Virus record (IMG/VR): IMGVR_UViG_3300048839_001052
Location: 1-49,441 of that record
Strand: one strand, 5' to 3'
DNA length: 49,441 bases
From: a virus
Position numbers and translations under genes: made by a program. Positions 6,560 to 49,441 of the stretch are shown here, one piece after another. The notes below the pieces were generated by a model that did no database searches, was not told the DNA's origin, and saw only the letters and a program-made list of their open reading frames with translations. The stretch's first letter is position 1; every line of letters starts with the position of its first letter.

Positions 6560-7066
6560 ATGGCAGAAAACTCATTCGTGGAACTGGTTCAGGGCAACAT
6601 GGGGCCACCGGCTAAGGTGGACCAGGGGGAACTAGACAAGATAGGCGATGACGCGGCGCTCAACATTCAGATCGTCGAGTTGGCTCGAGCCGGTGTACCC
6701 TACCCGGTTATGGCTGACCAGCTTGGCATGTCGCTGTCAAAGCTGCTGGCGCGAATTAACCAGATGATAAGCGGCGGCAACGATGTCCTCAGCAAGCAGC
6801 AGATGAACGACTACCTGCTATATCAGCTTGGCTTGATTCAGATGGGTATCGAGAACTCGCTCGAGGACATGCAGGTTAGGCCAACCGGGGACCCAGTAGA
6901 GGACAAGGTTATATTCTCTGCCAGGGACAAGGGGCGCGTGGGACTGCACAAGTTCCTTCAGCACCAAGCCGCTATCATGCAGCTATTCCGGCAGCAGATC
7001 GACATTCGGGAGGTAAGGAAGGTGGAGATCAGCGTTGTGAGGCCAGAGGATTTTGACGCGCTGTGA
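6560..7066 (+). CDS. Probable terminase small subunit (168 aa)
   Basis: It lies directly before the large terminase and has the usual size. Residues about 31-75 resemble a helix-turn-helix (VELARAGVPYPVMADQLGMSLSKLLAR in outline), expected for recognition of packaging DNA. The second half is helical and probably drives oligomerisation. The assignment rests on position, length and the DNA-binding-like N-terminus, not on a strongly conserved motif. The mRNA seems to start at the ATG itself. Confidence 0.7.
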   Translation: MAENSFVELVQGNMGPPAKVDQGELDKIGDDAALNIQIVELARAGVPYPVMADQLGMSLSKLLARINQMISGGNDVLSKQQMNDYLLYQLGLIQMGIENSLEDMQVRPTGDPVEDKVIFSARDKGRVGLHKFLQHQAAIMQLFRQQIDIREVRKVEISVVRPEDFDAL

Positions 7067-7081
7067 GTTCTGGAATATAAT
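7053..7081 (+). promoter_or_regulatory. Promoter within the end of the small terminase gene
   Basis: TTGACG (7053-7058), exactly 17 bp, TATAAT (7076-7081). Transcription would start near 7088 and carry the hairpin at 7109-7135 in its leader, allowing separate control of the large terminase and later genes. Confidence 0.7.
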
Positions 7082-7108
7082 GATCGTGTCTAATCTCTCC
7101 TTCCCCTG

Positions 7109-7135
7109 GAGGGGCGACTCATTGGGTCGCCCCTC
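7109..7135 (+). promoter_or_regulatory. 10-bp perfect hairpin just before the large terminase start
   Basis: GAGGGGCGAC (7109-7118) pairs perfectly with GTCGCCCCTC (7126-7135) around a 7-nt loop. The stem includes the only GGAGG-like ribosome-binding site (7108-7112) and ends 3 nt before the ATG at 7139. There is no T tract, so this is more likely a translation-control hairpin than a terminator, but a protein-assisted terminator cannot be excluded. Confidence 0.7.
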
Positions 7136-7138
7136 TCC

Positions 7139-8542
7139 ATGTCTCCAGACCGCCTCGCTATGGGAATAAAGGATAACGTAGAATACGTCGTCGATTTGGG
7201 CACCGGCACCAAGCCGACGCTTAAGCTCTACGGGGCCATCAGGGAGATGTGGCACTATCGGGGGCCGGAAGTGATCGTCAGTGGTCCCTATGAGTGCGGC
7301 AAGACCTACGGGTTCCTACACAAGCTCCACAATCTTGCCATCAAGTACCCCGGTTCACAGATACTAATGGTGCGCCAGTCGTACTCTTCCCTGCTGACGT
7401 CGGCTTGGCAGAGCTACGCCAAAAAGGTGCTACCCTATCCGCCAGGGCACGAGATGTGCCCGGTGGACGTCTTTGGTGGCGGTCGCCCGGAGTGGGTCAT
7501 GTACCCCAACCAAAGCCAGATATTCCTGGGCGGGCTGGATAACCCAGAAAAGGTGCTGTCCTCAGAGTACGACTTTATCTTTATCCCCCAGGGTGAGGAG
7601 ATCGCCCTTCACGCCTACGAGCAACTGACTTCTCGGGCGACGGGTCGCGCCGGTAACGCTCCGTACTCGCAGGTCATGGTTGACTGCAACCCTGGCCCGC
7701 CGTCTCACTGGATTCTCCACCGGAAGCCCGCCAACCTACTGTTTGCCGCCCATAAGGACAACCCCACCCTGTACGACCACGAACTGAACGACTGGACTCC
7801 GCAGGGCAGGCGTACCATCGAGCGTCTACAGTCGCTGACCGGGCTACGCTACAAGCGCGGCTATCTGGGCTTGTGGGCCGGTGCCGAGGGTCAGGTATAC
7901 GAGGACTTTGATGATCAGGTTCACGTCATCAACGATTTCCCCATACCGAAGGAGTGGAAGCGGCATCGCGTTATGGACTTCGGGTACACCCACCCGTCTG
8001 TTGTCCAGTGGTGGGCAGAGGACGAGGACGGTCGCCTATACATGTATCGAGAGATGTACATGACGAAGCGCATCACTGCTGACCACATTAGGGGGGTCAA
8101 TGGTAAACCCGGAATTATCCAGTTGTCGGGCGGGGAGATTTACGAGAGGCCGATGATCTGCGACCACGACGCCGAGGACCGGGCTATCCTCAATAAGGCG
8201 GGCATCCCAACGGTGGCAGCCAGGAAGGGCATCAAGGAGGGAATAGAGCTTGTCCAGAACCGGCTCCGAATTCAAGCTGACGGGAGGCCCCGGATGTTCT
8301 TCTTCAGGGATGCCCTGGTCGAGGAGGACGAGGACCTAGCCGTTGACTTCCGGCCCGTCAGGACTACAGAGGAATTCGCCGGGTACGTCTGGCGAGAGAT
8401 GGACGTGGGCAGGGAAGCCACGGCGCGAGACGAGATACCCGTGCGGACTGACGACCACGGCATGGACTGCCTACGATACATATGTATGCAGGTAGATGGG
8501 GACGCATACTACGGCAAGGCTCGCGGCGTCAGTTACGCTTGA
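7139..8542 (+). CDS. terL: Terminase large subunit (467 aa)
   Basis: Packaging motor. The ATPase half has a Walker A motif (GPYECGKT, about residues 49-56) and a Walker B-like stretch (YDFIFIPQGEE, 144-154), with acidic residues closing it but Gln where an acidic residue is often found. The nuclease half shows VMDFGYTHPS (Asp280), CDHDAED (342-347) and TDDHGMD near 445, consistent with the RNase H-like metal-binding aspartates. Start: ATG at 7139, three bases after a hairpin; ATG at 7160 is possible. It cuts and translocates phage DNA into the prohead together with the portal. Confidence 0.93.
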   Translation: MSPDRLAMGIKDNVEYVVDLGTGTKPTLKLYGAIREMWHYRGPEVIVSGPYECGKTYGFLHKLHNLAIKYPGSQILMVRQSYSSLLTSAWQSYAKKVLPYPPGHEMCPVDVFGGGRPEWVMYPNQSQIFLGGLDNPEKVLSSEYDFIFIPQGEEIALHAYEQLTSRATGRAGNAPYSQVMVDCNPGPPSHWILHRKPANLLFAAHKDNPTLYDHELNDWTPQGRRTIERLQSLTGLRYKRGYLGLWAGAEGQVYEDFDDQVHVINDFPIPKEWKRHRVMDFGYTHPSVVQWWAEDEDGRLYMYREMYMTKRITADHIRGVNGKPGIIQLSGGEIYERPMICDHDAEDRAILNKAGIPTVAARKGIKEGIELVQNRLRIQADGRPRMFFFRDALVEEDEDLAVDFRPVRTTEEFAGYVWREMDVGREATARDEIPVRTDDHGMDCLRYICMQVDGDAYYGKARGVSYA

Positions 8543-13285: not shown

Positions 13286-13316
13286 AAAGGCAGGTTAGAA
13301 ATCTAACCTGCCTTTT
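13286..13316 (+). terminator. Intrinsic terminator after the ssb operon
   Basis: AAAGGCAGGTTAGA (13286-13299) is the exact reverse complement of TCTAACCTGCCTTT (13302-13315), followed by T and ATTA. It separates the recombination genes from the capsid genes. The next ATG begins 4 nt after it. Confidence 0.85.
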
Positions 13317-24281: not shown

Positions 24282-27200
24282 ATGGCGCGATTCGTCGGAC
24301 TAGCCGTTTACTTCTTCGCCAACGATAACCTGAATACGGCGCTCCAGGACAGCCTGGGCGGTTACACGCGCCCTATCACCGACATGTCCTACGTCCAGGT
24401 GGTCGATGGCCTGTCGAGGCTCACCGTTGAGTTCCCGGTCACCAGCACATTCGGCGACCTAGAGGTTCTGGGCAACGTCATGCTGGTCAACTACGTTGAC
24501 GAATGGTACGGCAACGTTGTTTACGCCGGTGAGGGATTCGAGATAACCGACATCCAGATCATGAACCAACCCGATGGGCCGGACATGGTTGTCCTGACCG
24601 GCGAGAGCCTCGCCAGGGAGCTTGCTGACAAGCACCTGTGGTACCCCATCGGCACCGAGGTCCAGTACAACACGACCCTGGCCCTCGACGCGCACGACGA
24701 CTCCGTAAACACCCTATCGTCTGCCGCGCTACAGAATGACACGGTGCTGTCCCTGAACTCGGTCACCACCCCGCAGCCGTGGAAGGAGAGTGACTACATT
24801 CTCGTCGAGCTTGACGGTGGTGGGTGGCACCCCACGATAGTCGATTCCATAGAGGGCACGGACATCACTATCAGGGACGCGCTTCCCGCAGCGGCAGCCT
24901 CTGGCAATGACGTTCACCGATACAATCGGCGCATCACCCTGACAAGCAACAACGGCGCGTACGTTGGGGCTCGCGTATTCATTACGATGAACGACGCCAC
25001 CGTGCACGCCAACATCATAGAGGAGATGGGCGAGGTGGACGGGGTGATGAAGATATACCTTCGCGACGGAATGGACAAGCCAGCCGACGCGGGGAAAGCC
25101 GTCACCATCAGCAACTACGAAACCCCGACCAACAGCAACCTGTCGCAACTGGACGGTCACATGCCGACCGAGTGGCAGATAGCCGGGGCGACCGGCACCG
25201 TTATACCGACCCGTCACCCACCGGATGGAATGTCCTTCCTCGATGTCCTCCAGCAAATCGTTGACCTGACCGGCGAGCACTGGCGGATGGATGTTGACTA
25301 CGCCAACGGCAAGCCGATCCGTCGCATAAAGTGGATTACCCCATCCGGGGAAAACAGCGGCAATGGGGGGATCGTCAACATCGTTGTCCCCAGGACCGTC
25401 TCCGAGGCCACGTACTACTCGACCACGATTACAGAGAACTCGGCTATCGTCGAAGGGCAGGTGACCAGCAAGCGACGCAAGAAGCAGTACACGAGAATCT
25501 ACCCTACCGCTGGCTCCGGGTACGTGTCGCTGTACAGTGTTAGTGCCGCGATGGAAGCCACCATCAATGGCATGGGCTACCAGATAGTCAGGACGGGCGA
25601 GTACCTCGCCTCGTACGAACCGCCATACATTGCCGATGTAGCAGAGGAGAGCGCAAGCGGAATTCGCGGTGTCCAGATCGGCTTCCCGGATGTCACAACG
25701 GAGTCCGCATCGCCAGCCGTTATCCTGTCAGCCGCCGACATGCTTGCGCTGGAAGCCGCGACGTGGCTTAGAGACAATGCGCGGGAGTACCGGGAAATAG
25801 ACGTCACCGACGTCCTATGGAACTGCTCCAAGCCGCCATACGCCGGTCAGAAGGTCCACCTCGCCTACACCTCGTATCCGCACGACTCCTGGCAGGAGAC
25901 GTGGGACTCCGGCACCGACCCCCTGTACATCAAGCGGGTCGAGATGACCTGGAGCAGCGACAAGGAGCTTAGGGTAAGCCTCAACCTAGTCAACGACCTG
26001 TCCGGCCCAGAGGATGATGGCGCTTCAATGGCGAGGCGGTTCAACAACTACGATCTCGCCACGCGGCGAGGCGTGTCGGTCACCTCGTCCCCTGTCGATT
26101 TCTCGTTCTTCGGGTATATCAGTTCCGATGACCACACCCACTCCGCCTATATGCCGAGAACCGGTGGGCAATTCACCGGCAACGTCAGCGCCAGCAGTGG
26201 CGTCACGTTCGACGGCGTTGACCTGAGTGCCCACGCATCCAACCCGAGCGCCCACCACAGCCCCGTTACCGCCTACGACACCTCGATGGGCGTAAGCGGG
26301 CAAGCGGTGTACGTCACCCCGGGGCTCAACTCCGGGCTGATCACCAGCGCCGGGCTCAAGATTTCGCTCAGGTCGGATAGTGGCATGAGTCTTGATAGCG
26401 GTGGCCTGGGTCTCGGGTCTCCGGGTACGAACAGCGCTGCATCGGCAAACACCGTCGCCGGTAGTACGCATACCCACGCCATCACGTCAACGAGTGACGG
26501 GAACAGTACGGTCGGCACGCTCCTCAAGGGGGACGCGGAGGGTGGCTTGACGCTGGGCAGGCTGGCTGTTGGGGCGAGCGTCGATACGTCGGCTACCCTC
26601 AAGGCCATAAGTAAGGCCAACGATGACTACACACTGTACCTGAAGCAGAAAAGTGGTCAGACGGCTGACGTTTGGCGGGTCGAGGATAGCTCCGGGAGCC
26701 CGCTGGTACGCCTGACCGGGGGCGGGAACCTCGAGAGTGGCACCCCAGCCTTTGTCTCGGGTCTGACCGGATGGCGCATCGAGGGCGCGACCGGCAACGC
26801 GGAATTTAACGACATCGTTGCGCGGGGGGAGTTCCACGCATCCATCTTCGTCGCTGACGAGATGCACGCCACCGGTGGTACCCTGGCGGTCATGACGGCA
26901 TCCAAGGTCGTTGACGGCATCGCAAACAACACCATGCCCGGTGCCGTGGGTAGCACGTTTATCGCTAACATCCAGGCGCAGCATACCGATCCCGGTCTTA
27001 GCTACTTCGCAGTGGGGGACGTTCTTCGTCTGAAGTGGATTCGGGTTAACCTCGGCGGCACGGTCATGGATGGGCGCGATGTGTACCTCGAGGTCGTCTC
27101 CGTGTTCGGGATAGAGGGGCGCGACCTGTCGGAGAACGAGCCGGGGTACTACCCAACGACATGCCGCTGGCTGTACGGCGGCGAAGCTGGCTATGTCCTT

Positions 27201-37531: not shown

Positions 37532-38212
37532 ATGACGAGAGAGCCGATGGTAGTTGATTTTCGAGGTGCGGTCAGCAAGGCGGTGCTGATCCTGATTTAC
37601 ATTGGGTCGGCGACGATCAGTGGGTTCTGGTTCTGGAGAGAGCTACCGGGCCTGCTGATGGACCCGGCCCGATTCCCGACGCTCGCCCCAGCCATGAGCG
37701 CCCTGTTTGGTGTCGCCATCATGGAGTTGGCGGTCATCGCCTGGAACTACAAGGTCAAGCGAGACACGGGCGTTGAGGGGGCGCAGCGATGGGTGGCGTG
37801 GTTCGGTCTGATCGCCGCCATCTCCATGAGTGGGCTGACAACCTTTGCGGCAGTCATGTCCTTCATCGGCAGCGGCAGCGATTTGGTTGGCGGCTACGTG
37901 GTTGAGTTCGCCACGCAAAACGGCATGGCATACTACACATTCCTTCAAATTCTTTTGGTGGCGCTGTTCAGCTTCGTGTTCGATCCCGATACCGTCGCCC
38001 AGCCGGAGCGCCCTCGCAAGGCGACCAAACCGGGCAGCGTTACGACGATCTCCTCGCCGCAGCGCAGTCAGGCCAGTGTCCCCCGAACCACGCAGGCCCC
38101 GGACTTCCAGGCCATCCTGGGCGTAACGGGAGCAGAGGCTGGTTCTCGCCCTACGCAGGCCCCGGTCTCCCAGAGACCAGCGGGCGGCGAGAGTCGGAGC
38201 CAGTCGGCCTAG
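37532..38212 (+). CDS. Four-pass membrane protein (226 aa)
   Basis: Hydrophobic helices at about residues 14-33, 50-70, 87-110 and 128-148, then a Pro/Ser/Gln-rich polar tail of about 75 residues, likely cytoplasmic and disordered. Start with AAGAGGTGAG directly upstream. Not recognised as a transporter family. In the replication operon it might anchor the replisome to the membrane; that is speculation. Confidence 0.7.
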   Translation: MTREPMVVDFRGAVSKAVLILIYIGSATISGFWFWRELPGLLMDPARFPTLAPAMSALFGVAIMELAVIAWNYKVKRDTGVEGAQRWVAWFGLIAAISMSGLTTFAAVMSFIGSGSDLVGGYVVEFATQNGMAYYTFLQILLVALFSFVFDPDTVAQPERPRKATKPGSVTTISSPQRSQASVPRTTQAPDFQAILGVTGAEAGSRPTQAPVSQRPAGGESRSQSA

Positions 38213-38223
38213 CGACGGAAGAT

Positions 38224-38682
38224 ATGGTCTACATAGTCCGGCATGGTGTGGACGAATTCTTTAAGGTCGGTCACACCAGCCGGAGTATATCCAGCAGAAT
38301 AGCCGAGCTTCAAGCCGGGACGCCGCACGAGATAACGTTATGCGCCCGGCTTGACGGCGATAAAGACATAGAGACTGCCATACACGCCAGCCTAGCCGAG
38401 TACCACATCAGAGGGGAGTGGTTCGAGGTGCCGGAGAGTGAGCTTATCGGCGTCCTGAGAGATGTAACAGACAAGCTAGATCGAGGCGATTCGTTACGTC
38501 TTACCTCTGGATTTGGGGTGAAAGAGCGTAACGGGAGGGCGGCTGGCGGCAAGAAAGCGAGTTACGGAAAGTCGTGTCCGGTATGCGGAAACCTTCTGAC
38601 CATCAGGCAGAGCTATTGCTCGTCGGTGTGCAGGCAGAGGGCCTACCGGCAAAGGAAACAGAGCAAGGAAAATGAAAAGTAA
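38224..38682 (+). CDS. T5orf172/GIY-YIG-type protein with C-terminal zinc finger (152 aa)
   Basis: N-terminal 90 residues fit the T5orf172 family of GIY-YIG nucleases: MVYIVRHG (Y-I pair), FFKVGHTSRSISSRIAELQ and IHASLAEYHIRGEWFEV with a Glu/His pattern. The C-terminus has CPVC ... C...C (near residues 117-138), a zinc finger, and a basic tail. Such proteins are often DNA-cleaving or DNA-binding enzymes of phage. Confidence 0.75.
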   Translation: MVYIVRHGVDEFFKVGHTSRSISSRIAELQAGTPHEITLCARLDGDKDIETAIHASLAEYHIRGEWFEVPESELIGVLRDVTDKLDRGDSLRLTSGFGVKERNGRAAGGKKASYGKSCPVCGNLLTIRQSYCSSVCRQRAYRQRKQSKENEK

Positions 38683-44600: not shown

Positions 44601-44981
44601 GCTGCCTGGATGCCAGCCTGGATGACCCTGGGTGAGGAGTACGAGAGCCGGGCGACGGTGAGCATTTACTACAAGGAAGCGCCTGTTCGCAAGGCTTCCC
44701 TGGCGTACGACGCAACGACGTATCTGAAGCTGGTTCGCGTTGACAAGAACGTGACGTTTGGCGGCGAGGTCATTCCCGTCGTATACGTCGTAGAGGGTAG
44801 CGACTGGAAGCACCGCCCGTTCGAGCGCTGGTACCTAGCGCCGGACCTGGGCTATGTTCGCTGGGAGAACCTGACTGATGGGTGGTTTACCGAGGCGGTC
44901 ACCATCGACGAGGACGGGGGACTTCCTATGCCCCCCGCGCCCCCGGCAATGCAGCTACTGGCAAAGTCGAAGGGGTGGTGA
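41679..44981 (+). CDS. Giant modular lysin: glycosidase-like domain plus C39-like peptidase (1100 aa)
   Basis: Residues about 1-375: TIM-barrel-like glycosidase with YNEPDQE (Glu125, possible acid) and LFSEFGYAER (Glu305, possible nucleophile). Residues about 379-394: an (EP)n linker. About 400-590: beta-rich carbohydrate-binding-like part. About 690-870: C39-like cysteine peptidase, GQFGCLALVYYM (Cys721), QHWVLVIGH (His820) and LVILDPWD (Asp844), order and spacing fitting a papain-like triad. The rest (to 1100) is a beta-rich C-terminal part. AGGAGAG precedes the ATG. It probably cuts cell-wall glycans and cross-links and leaves the cell through the holin. A tail-associated role is the alternative. 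Confidence 0.75.
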   Translation: MIIRPNIGHVFTSISKPTGVGEKYWRPVLSNGGRITVHSIDAAGPILEALKMAQSLGVDHNVSAEFRVTGIHADEGRFVDVPNYNLDPEQAAEDDFPWHLDRWKRAFGSDWDFVRTRCYFRVYNEPDQERSEWLAKNAFRQLELAHKFGVRVSLFGWSAGTPDYPAWEAPVMASLLEELSERPFSAAVSLHEYSLTDDVIVSVAAETGRSYDFVKRSYLLDVGLFTSAVESVTTLDGAEFVKAVLEARGMVMAGATLKASLLDFGDPPLMIDGIIESVTAGVDHDLIGRWTKVPGLRKCTLLFSEFGYAERSAPPKEKIVADLNSAWTAYYSYPNVHGMALWVLDPTWGNLQSTWLALLPDIAKLNLEAEYEVPDGDPEPEPEPEPEPEQPPSKNQIRNGDWTEGWTKIDATNLQMNEWRLEWEDDDSFDPPEWTVKGRGQLPSHEQSYVNPISGVTYKVFGSHAPFQTRMVQDNVILRDGKRQKLIVRGWFEAYTVENGKRYYGTVDPYQAKMELKVNGSVIATREMVLHRRSELAPVGETYDGAYEFEVSGEFDAGDLNKVAIRFESRWGISTNWFIKSVGVYEMAEDDFALDRGYVWQQAMALRALNLNDDAALQKKIVGDGWVPVSPERWITQPNGHKVAVQAAENPVSRVRRAYWARVGDWQNVSFIGSGELETPGNPIDGAYMLKVSGYSQRDPAWSTMRLGTVGSEKTVGQFGCLALVYYMMADFWDLESTASFPEFHDRLVGKGAFSGHFILPGALDIAYGNDVDNLGWRPRSSADFWKLIRYSLYGVEVGGPAPVAVRVDFNPATPQEEQHWVLVIGHTGDFPPNGKPSDLVILDPWDMRPEPKLLGDSYPIDGDDALEMLYYKRVDARDKYYIGSCFPSPMPDETVSRGPVVSFRHSANSPHPNHQENMQLVDLRIGRGAYPCIIKDGNVEQVWVDGSRVMRLCDTSHGNETFYSLETVGTSLPAAWMPAWMTLGEEYESRATVSIYYKEAPVRKASLAYDATTYLKLVRVDKNVTFGGEVIPVVYVVEGSDWKHRPFERWYLAPDLGYVRWENLTDGWFTEAVTIDEDGGLPMPPAPPAMQLLAKSKGW

Positions 44982-45598
44982 TGGGCGACCCGATCTTCTC
45001 CATTGTGACTCGGCATCTCTCGTCTCGACCCAGATCGTTTGACGTTCTGCTGCGCTGCCTGGATGCTCAGACATACAAGGGCTTCGAGCACGTTGTGTTG
45101 ACGGACAACGAGGGTAGCGGGGTGGAGTGGGCCAACAGTCAGGTCCCGTCTCTTATCGAGAGGGCCACGGGGGACTGGGTGTGGGTTGTGGACGACGATG
45201 ATCTCCTGGTGTCGCCGGATACCCTACACTATCTGGCCCAGGAGATTGTCGAAAACATCAGGTCCCCCTGGACTGGTGGCCCCTTGTCGTCGGCGTTTGT
45301 CAAGGGTTCCTTTGCGACTAACGGGACCCTGCCACCTCGCGACCTCTGGAAGTGCCGCCCGGTGAAGGGGCAGATCAGCGGGCAGAATGTGGTTGCGTCT
45401 ATCGATTTAGCCATGCGCTGCCGGTCAGCCTGGGGGCCGGTTTACTCGTCGGACTACGATTACGTTCTGAGTTGCTACAAGGAGTCGAAGTACATCCACT
45501 ATGTAGACCGCGTGGTGATCGCCCAGCAGAGGATAGGCAACGGTCGCGGCGACGACGATCCACCGGGGTACGAGCCGATAGATATTAGCTGGGCATGA
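44981..45598 (+). CDS. GT2-family glycosyltransferase (205 aa)
   Basis: GT-A fold signature: FSIVTRHLSSRP at the start, LRCLDAQTYKGFEHVVLTDN, then WVWVVDDDDLLV (the DxD-like metal/nucleotide-sugar motif) and a closing region with Tyr/Asp. Short for the family, as in phage forms. The ATG overlaps the lysin stop (TGATG), so the pair is made together. It may glycosylate virion or host-wall material, like the first domain at 17708. Confidence 0.8.
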   Translation: MGDPIFSIVTRHLSSRPRSFDVLLRCLDAQTYKGFEHVVLTDNEGSGVEWANSQVPSLIERATGDWVWVVDDDDLLVSPDTLHYLAQEIVENIRSPWTGGPLSSAFVKGSFATNGTLPPRDLWKCRPVKGQISGQNVVASIDLAMRCRSAWGPVYSSDYDYVLSCYKESKYIHYVDRVVIAQQRIGNGRGDDDPPGYEPIDISWA

Positions 45599-45605
45599 TA
45601 TTCTA

Positions 45606-45633
45606 TTGCTACAGTGTGCATTAGTGGTATAAT
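45606..45633 (+). promoter_or_regulatory. Strong promoter of the candidate RNA
   Basis: TTGCTA (45606-45611), 16-bp spacer, TGG-TATAAT (extended -10, 45628-45633). Start near 45640. No ORF follows before the terminator. Confidence 0.75.
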
Positions 45634-45725
45634 GATCTCGGATTGGATTCCAGAGAGAGGGGATGTTCCCTTCCCCAAGTGGCGCACTCCTCGCCGCACG
45701 CTCCCCTCTCTCTCCCCATTTCCGT

Positions 45726-45776
45726 ATGGTACCACCGGACTTTTACGGGAGACGCAGATGGTACCTCGGGACTTTT
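45726..45776 (+). repeat. ATGGTACC repeat pair (right-centre)
   Basis: ATGGTACCACCGGACTTTT (45726-45744) and ATGGTACCTCGGGACTTTT (45758-45776), 32 bp apart. The same motif occurs twice at 49385 and 49405. Both pairs are followed by C-rich sequence. Confidence 0.85.
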
Positions 45777-45805
45777 GACCCCCCTGTGCCCCACATGCGT
45801 CCAAC

Positions 45806-45833
45806 AAAAACCCACCAAATCAGGTGGGTTTTC
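45806..45833. terminator. Bidirectional intrinsic terminator
   Basis: AAAACCCACC (45807-45816), loop AAATCA, GGTGGGTTTT (45823-45832), then CTTATTT rightward; leftward the RNA ends in GGTGGGTTTTTG. The leftward gene's stop (45820-45822) lies in the loop, so its last codons form one arm of the stem. Confidence 0.9.
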
Positions 45834-46242
45834 TTATTTGCCACTCTTGGACTTGTCCCATCTGTTCCCGATAGTCCCTCGCCAGCGCCCAAAACGGGTC
45901 GTACCACTTGTCCTCGAAACCCCTGGTAGCCTGTCTCAGAAAACCCTCGACGTTCTCTTGGGGAAACTGGGCTTGGGCCAGGAAGTACGGGATAGAATCG
46001 ATGGCCTCGACCACCGCCTCGTGCTCTGTTTTCCCGGAAGCCGCGAATCTTGGCCTCGTGTTGAATGGTGCCACTCTTACGAACATCTCCAGGTGGTACT
46101 TGTGGTGCCGTTCCGGGTCGAATCTAAGGATCAGCCCGTCCCTCATATCGATCAGGCTCAGTAGAATTTCCTTTGCCGTCTCGGGCCACAAGCTGCCGAC
46201 CAGCTTCTCGGTCTCGCTCATTTCGATTTTTTCGCTGTTCAT
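45820..46242 (-). CDS. Hypothetical protein (140 aa)
   Basis: Not recognised. Helical N-terminus (ETEKLVGSLWPETAKEILLSLIDMRDG in outline), a middle with HHKYHLEMFVRVAPF and an acidic region near HEAVVEAIDSIPYFL. AAGGAGACG lies nine bases before the ATG. It is the only leftward gene between the candidate RNA and the right TTCGCATAG array, so it might be a regulator of the region. A minus-strand CATAAT at 46307-46312 is the only promoter hint. Confidence 0.75.
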   Translation of the reverse strand: MNSEKIEMSETEKLVGSLWPETAKEILLSLIDMRDGLILRFDPERHHKYHLEMFVRVAPFNTRPRFAASGKTEHEAVVEAIDSIPYFLAQAQFPQENVEGFLRQATRGFEDKWYDPFWALARDYREQMGQVQEWQIRKPT

Positions 46243-46373: not shown

Positions 46374-46528
46374 TTCGCATAGTCCCCTCTGCTGCCTCTT
46401 GGGTTCTGTTTCGCATGGCTCGCTCGAACCGAGAGGGCCCTCTTCGCATAGTCCCGTCGCTCCGGTCGAGGCCCTGGAGAGGGGTGGGTGTTTCGCATAG
46501 TCCTTTTCGCATAATCCTCTTCGTATAG
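46374..46528 (+). repeat. Right TTCGCATAG array (six copies)
   Basis: TTCGCATAG starts at 46374, 46443 and 46492; variants TTCGCATGG at 46410, TTCGCATAA at 46506 and TTCGTATAG at 46520. Spacings 36, 33, 49, 14 and 14 bp; the last three form a 14-bp tandem repeat. Same strand orientation as the left array and, like it, non-coding. Confidence 0.85.
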
Positions 46529-46656
46529 TAGTGGATAGCGCGGGGTAGGTCAATGCCCTCTATACCCTGGCTCATATTGCCGAACTTGTATAATAAGGAA
46601 GAGCAACGGGGCTACACTGCTGAACATTAGTAGAATATGAGTGCCATATAAAACTC
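46529..46656. other. Non-coding stretch between array and promoter
   Basis: Contains an isolated TATAAT (about 46591) without a -35 match. No gene seen. Confidence 0.4.
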
Positions 46657-48695: not shown

Positions 48696-49355
48696 ATGTT
48701 TACGATTTATCACACTGGGCGGTTGTTCTGGACTGATAAGCCTATGGTCATCGAGGCCAACGGCGAGACGGTCAATTTCCCGCAGGGTCTTGCGGTGAAC
48801 GTGGTGCAGTACATGGATACTATCGACATCCGGATCGACGCGGGCAACCCGTTCGACCGGGTCACCGAACGGATCGACGTGGGCTGGATTCCCATCGGTC
48901 TGGACACTCTCGCAGAGTCCCTGGATTGGGACCTGCGAGAGTGCACGGTCGGCGAGGCCCTGGTGCGGGCGGGTTACGCCGAAGATGAGATCGAGGCCAT
49001 CAGCGAGGGTACCCTGGAAGCCCTGGAAGCCCATGCCCTGGGCCTGGGTATCGGTGTCACGGAGATCGCTCTGGTGGACTTCAGCGGGTACAAGTGGGAC
49101 ACCCCTGAGCGCAAAATCTTCGATGAGTTCGTTATGCTGGTATATGACCGCATCGCGGGCGACTTCGATGACCTGGAGTTCACAGAGCGGCTCGCGCAAG
49201 AGCTTAAGGGTCTTTCTCTGTCGGAGTTGCTGGAAGAGATCGGCGCTGCGGTTGAGTCGGTAGCAGAGAGCTATGTGTACGAGTTGGCTAACTACTTCAT
49301 CGAGTCCGATTACCCCATCGAGGTGATCAGCGGCGAAGAGGAAGAGGAAGAGTAG
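48696..49355 (+). CDS. Acidic hypothetical protein (219 aa)
   Basis: Not recognised. Strongly acidic with a run of Glu at the end. N-terminal half strand-rich, C-terminal half helical (SLSELLEEIGAAVESVAESYVYELANYF in outline). AAGGAGATTAGAG precedes the ATG. Last gene before the right-end repeats; its transcript would read through them into the terminator at 43-77 if the ends join. An acidic DNA-mimic is a possible role. Confidence 0.7.
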   Translation: MFTIYHTGRLFWTDKPMVIEANGETVNFPQGLAVNVVQYMDTIDIRIDAGNPFDRVTERIDVGWIPIGLDTLAESLDWDLRECTVGEALVRAGYAEDEIEAISEGTLEALEAHALGLGIGVTEIALVDFSGYKWDTPERKIFDEFVMLVYDRIAGDFDDLEFTERLAQELKGLSLSELLEEIGAAVESVAESYVYELANYFIESDYPIEVISGEEEEEE

Positions 49356-49356
49356 T

Positions 49357-49365
49357 TTCGCATAG
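49357..49365 (+). repeat. Single TTCGCATAG copy after the last gene
   Basis: TTCGCATAG starts 2 nt after the stop of the gene at 48696. Same orientation as both arrays. Confidence 0.8.
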
Positions 49366-49384
49366 TGTACGGGTAGGGGCGGGG

Positions 49385-49423
49385 ATGGTACCGGGGGACT
49401 TCAGATGGTACCGGGGGACTTTT
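49385..49423 (+). repeat. ATGGTACC repeat pair (right end)
   Basis: ATGGTACCGGGGGACTT (49385-49401) and ATGGTACCGGGGGACTTTT (49405-49423), 20 bp apart, then a run of C to the window end. Related to the pair at 45726. Confidence 0.85.
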
Positions 49424-49441
49424 AGCCCCCCCCCACCCCCC

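Follow-up and report, generated by a model that had tools for sequence, protein, structure and literature searches.

The window, i.e. the whole stretch of DNA analysed here, is a 49,441-base environmental phage contig of IMG/VR (IMGVR_UViG_3300048839_001052). It carries genes for the terminase large subunit (TerL, 7139-8542), a portal protein, a helicase and a primase, and TerL lies together with a TerS candidate on the + strand at 6.6-8.5 kb. The capsid and terminase proteins are less than 60% identical to those of any cultured phage, and no DNA close to the right half of the window was found among cultured phages. The nearest cultured relatives of TerL include P1312 and Dagobah, for which a circular record and 1,187-base terminal repeats, respectively, are seen rather than cos. 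The closest long relative is IMGVR_UViG_3300012668_000160, whose terminase and capsid protein (MCP) are 59% and 65% identical to those of the window, respectively, and searches through the helicase, the convergent 140-aa gene and the lysozyme-like gene yielded no relative besides it.

Toward the right end of the window, a gap of 221 nt separates the end of a rightward gene block from a convergent gene (45820-46242) with a 140-aa product; the product of the gene at 44882-45598 has a weak likeness to family 2 glycosyltransferases. The gap holds the unit at 45606-45833, which the original prediction described as a promoter and a terminator enclosing a structured, probably regulatory phage RNA. 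The features of the unit, and a second copy of part of it, are as follows.

45606..45633, + strand: sigma-70-type promoter with an extended -10, TTGCTA-16-TATAAT with TG before the -10, matching the consensus
45640..45832, + strand: predicted short transcript of ~193 nt, deduced from the promoter and the terminator
45652..45713, + strand: long hairpin, with a 12-bp outer stem (AGAGAGAGGGGA / TCCCCTCTCTCT) plus an inner stem
45726..45742, + strand: repeat unit 1, ATGGTACCACCGGACTT, with GGTACC at 45728-45733
45758..45784, + strand: repeat unit 2, ATGGTACCTCGGGACTTTTGACCCCCC, with GGTACC at 45760-45765
45769..45784, - strand: core GGGGGGTCAAAAGTCC, an element of the kind that HNH-type cos phages have on the left of the cut
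45807..45832, both strands: bidirectional intrinsic terminator, a perfect 10-bp stem that is T-rich on either strand
49384..49441, + strand: second copy of the two-unit element (repeat to 49431), with units at 49385 and 49405, at the poly-C contig end

Both transcription signals of the original prediction stand up against shuffled controls. Promoters scoring at least 10/12 occur 14 times in the whole window, two of them extended, as compared with 1.55 and 0.05, respectively, in block-wise dinucleotide shuffles. Terminators like that at 45807-45832 do not occur in the shuffles at all, and the window has two bidirectional ones, the other being a strong terminator with an 11-bp stem between two rightward genes (13286-13315). 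The promoter aims at the terminator 173 nt away with nothing else between them, and this locus (45606-45832) is the only one in the window where a promoter and a terminator stand on the same strand at most 300 nt apart; none was seen in 20 shuffled genomes. Another promoter, with a perfect TATAAT, precedes the terminase gene at 7053-7139 and shares TATAATGATC with the promoter at 45606-45633; it is followed by a hairpin (GGAGGGGCGAC/GTCGCCCCTCTCC) whose end coincides with the start codon.

Folding against shuffled controls, a check proposed together with the RNA claim, also came out in its favor. The + strand folds with a z score of -5.14 (200 shuffles, 197 nt) or -4.48 (24 shuffles), the latter ranking 4th among 522 windows of the contig. 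The excess comes mostly from the hairpin at 45652-45713 and the terminator: the 5' half with the hairpin has a z score of -4.51, none of the shuffles folding equally well, whereas the half with the GGTACC palindromes gives -1.47, no better than chance, implying that the palindromes are not the cause of the stable fold. The two GGTACC loops of the original prediction are present as palindromes, but they belong to a recurring DNA element, and the fold excess lies elsewhere. Two other regions, 38191-38383 and 48831-49023, fold with z scores near -5; they lie within or overlap coding sequence. The predicted transcript (45640-45832) matches no Rfam family, and searches of phages and IMG/VR gave no homologue of the whole promoter-terminator unit.

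The GGTACC part is a two-unit DNA repeat, [GGTACC-n3-GGACTTTT]x2, followed by CCCCCC, and it is shared with the distant relative IMGVR_UViG_3300012668_000160, which has the double element twice in GGTTCC variants (GGTTCCTCCCGACTTTCAAGG...CCCCCGGACTTTTGACCCCCC and GGTTCCTCCCAACTCTTGGGGGAGGTTCCTCCCAACTCTTGACCCCCC). Across both phages the element reads [GGTWCC-n3/4-RACTTTT]x2-CCCCCC. When IMG/VR and GTDB were scanned for exact matches to the full unit, only this relative came up, apart from a single unit on its own in one Flavobacteriales MAG. Each of the four copies coincides with the 3' end of a gene or closely follows it, has the same direction as the genes, and runs into C-rich sequence. None of the three other copies (49384-49431 and the two in the relative) has a comparable promoter-terminator pair or hairpin, and on the gene-sense strand none shows a fold excess over shuffles. 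A conserved RNA structure in the repeats was rejected as well, the z scores in the + strand sense being between -1.5 and +0.4. In two of the four elements the units agree fully with each other over 16-17 nt despite lying in different reading frames, which argues that the sequence is kept as DNA rather than as a peptide or an RNA fold.

Other repeats were also noticed. TTCGCATAGT occurs ten times (at most one mismatch) in non-coding sequence near the contig ends, at 223-335, 46374-46529 and 49357-49366, always on the + strand; the window has 11 matches where 1.8 would be expected, and these repeats are possibly operators or origin repeats. Two capsid relatives have unrelated tandem repeats of their own (G012 at 51202-51309, near its contig end, and G009 at about 26140-26236), one of which contains G-tracts (GAACTGGGATTCATGGGGGG).

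The - strand core of the element resembles part of the packaging site of HK97-type phages. A scan of IMG/VR for the 16-mer GGGGGGTCAAAAGTCC returned 13 contigs, one being IMGVR_UViG_3300012668_000160. In nine of the 12 other contigs RACCG follows 16-19 nt downstream, as compared with 3.5% of random positions, and in many of them the site immediately precedes the terminase genes, an HNH gene being found upstream in some cases. Among cultured phages, the same pattern is found just left of the chromosome end in HK97 (GGGGGGGGGATCAAATCTTC), HK022, D3 (GGGGCGGGTCAAAACCTT) and Silvanus (GGCGGGGTCAAAGTTC); in Halomonas H4907 and PseuP_224 it stands between the HNH gene and the terminase genes. HNH-type cos phages from several bacterial phyla apparently have in common a G-tract/TCAAAnnTC element to the left of a RACCG core, at a distance of about 16-20 nt; no description of it was found in the literature searched, nor, among the matches listed, any paper linking the core GGGGGGTCAAAAGTCC to cos. 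One HK97 report places the TerS site at +15 to +29, on the opposite side of the cut from the left element (PMC11331095).

With a weight matrix built from cultured cos sites, the element copies of the window take ranks 1 and 2, and those of the relative ranks 1 and 3, its rank 2 being an opposite-strand match inside the first element; the matrix was picked after the resemblance had been noticed, and the ranking is thus no independent test. When the matrix columns outside the G-tract were permuted, none of 400 permutations reached the summed score, implying that more than the G-tract underlies the match.

Full membership among cos sites was nevertheless rejected. RACCG is absent 16-19 nt downstream of the core in all four copies, and no match to the HNH endonuclease family (PF01844) was found in the window phage or in the relative, both of which may be incomplete records. 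The core lies on the - strand at 45.8 kb, opposite in orientation to TerS and TerL and not adjoining them, and the two copies per genome are awkward for a cos site. We do not call the element cos for these reasons. The core is also absent from 17 more records of capsid (MCP) relatives.

Taken together, a region that looked like an RNA resolves into two components, of which one is a transcription unit and the other a DNA repeat. The transcription unit is likely to be real, with a predicted non-coding RNA of ~193 nt and a stable 5' hairpin; the extended -10 promoter would fire toward the bidirectional terminator to produce it. A short non-coding transcript is therefore a fair prediction from a promoter facing a terminator, but the claim that it is structured and probably regulatory is not supported, with no Rfam match and a GGTACC element whose three other copies have neither promoter nor terminator and fold unremarkably. 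The regulatory label is only partly justified because the GGTACC half recurs as a DNA element without RNA signals and resembles part of an HK97-type packaging site.

We tentatively favor, at somewhat less than even odds, the view that a transcription unit and a DNA recognition element lie on top of each other here. The tandem element would most likely be a site bound sequence-specifically by a protein, and since its best match is the G-tract/TCAAAnnTC left of the HK97-type cut, recognition by the terminase for packaging is the leading reading. Packaging would then go leftward from the element, so that the early genes would enter the capsid last and leave it first on injection. If this is a packaging site, the left element of cos would be in use beyond the HNH phages, and the direction of packaging would become predictable for a group of uncultured phages.

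It is possible, though we consider this the less probable account, that the unit is a genuine regulatory small RNA gene, with the 193-nt RNA base pairing or binding a protein and the repeats contributing to what it does. There would otherwise be no point in a promoter that faces a terminator and serves no ORF, the pair is absent from the shuffles, and the fold is among the best of the window; if real, the RNA would be a compact phage RNA gene. However, neither a homologue nor an Rfam match was found for the unit, and the repeats recur apart from the promoter-terminator pair with a fold that is not unusual.

More doubtful is a plain transcription boundary, consisting of a leftover promoter and a bidirectional terminator between convergent genes, where the C-rich tandem element would aid termination (e.g. 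as a C-rich, G-poor rut-like site) or serve as an operator. The position of all four copies at or just past gene ends agrees with such a role, and hairpins such as GGGGG-ACTTTTAG-CCCCC are possible at some copies. Nevertheless, the three other copies fold no better than shuffles, and the match of TCAAAAGTCC to cos elements is left unexplained.

We regard as improbable a transcribed packaging signal, that is, a new terminase site (tandem, inverted relative to the terminase genes and without an HNH partner) inside a small RNA gene whose RNA or transcription would help to start packaging.

The absence of a coding signal, also part of the original prediction, was borne out. Two + frames are open across 45606-45833, but the ORFs in question (45643-46164 and 45663-45929, in one open frame) continue past the terminator and overlap the opposite gene, and neither matches a Pfam family; the only ATG-to-stop frame inside the predicted transcript is the six-codon MVPRDF. 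A coding explanation, e.g. the ORF at 45663-45929 or short MVPxDF-stop peptides, was rejected on these frames and families and is highly improbable, since the two units within one element are alike despite their different frames, although GGGAG stands 6 nt ahead of the ATG of MVPRDF-stop and the units are spaced by 32, 20, 47 and 23 in the four elements (counted by hand), each value being 2 modulo 3.

Among known systems, phage-encoded small RNAs with their own promoter and terminator have the same promoter-hairpin-terminator layout, at ~193 nt and with no contained gene; the predicted RNA differs from them in having no homologue found and no known target. If a short phage RNA gene does overlap a packaging-like signal here, it would call to mind the packaging RNA of phi29, although the window phage is of a different type with a different terminase, and Rfam gave no match. 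The remaining comparison, and the one on which the packaging reading of the overlaid DNA element is founded, is with the HNH-type cos sites. The window element differs from them in that it has neither the RACCG cut-site signature nor an HNH gene, stands opposite to the terminase genes and occurs in tandem with GGTACC in two copies per genome; with HK97, HK022, D3 and Silvanus it shares the G-tract followed by TCAAAnnTC, and several environmental phages carry the identical 16-mer GGGGGGTCAAAAGTCC ahead of their terminase genes.
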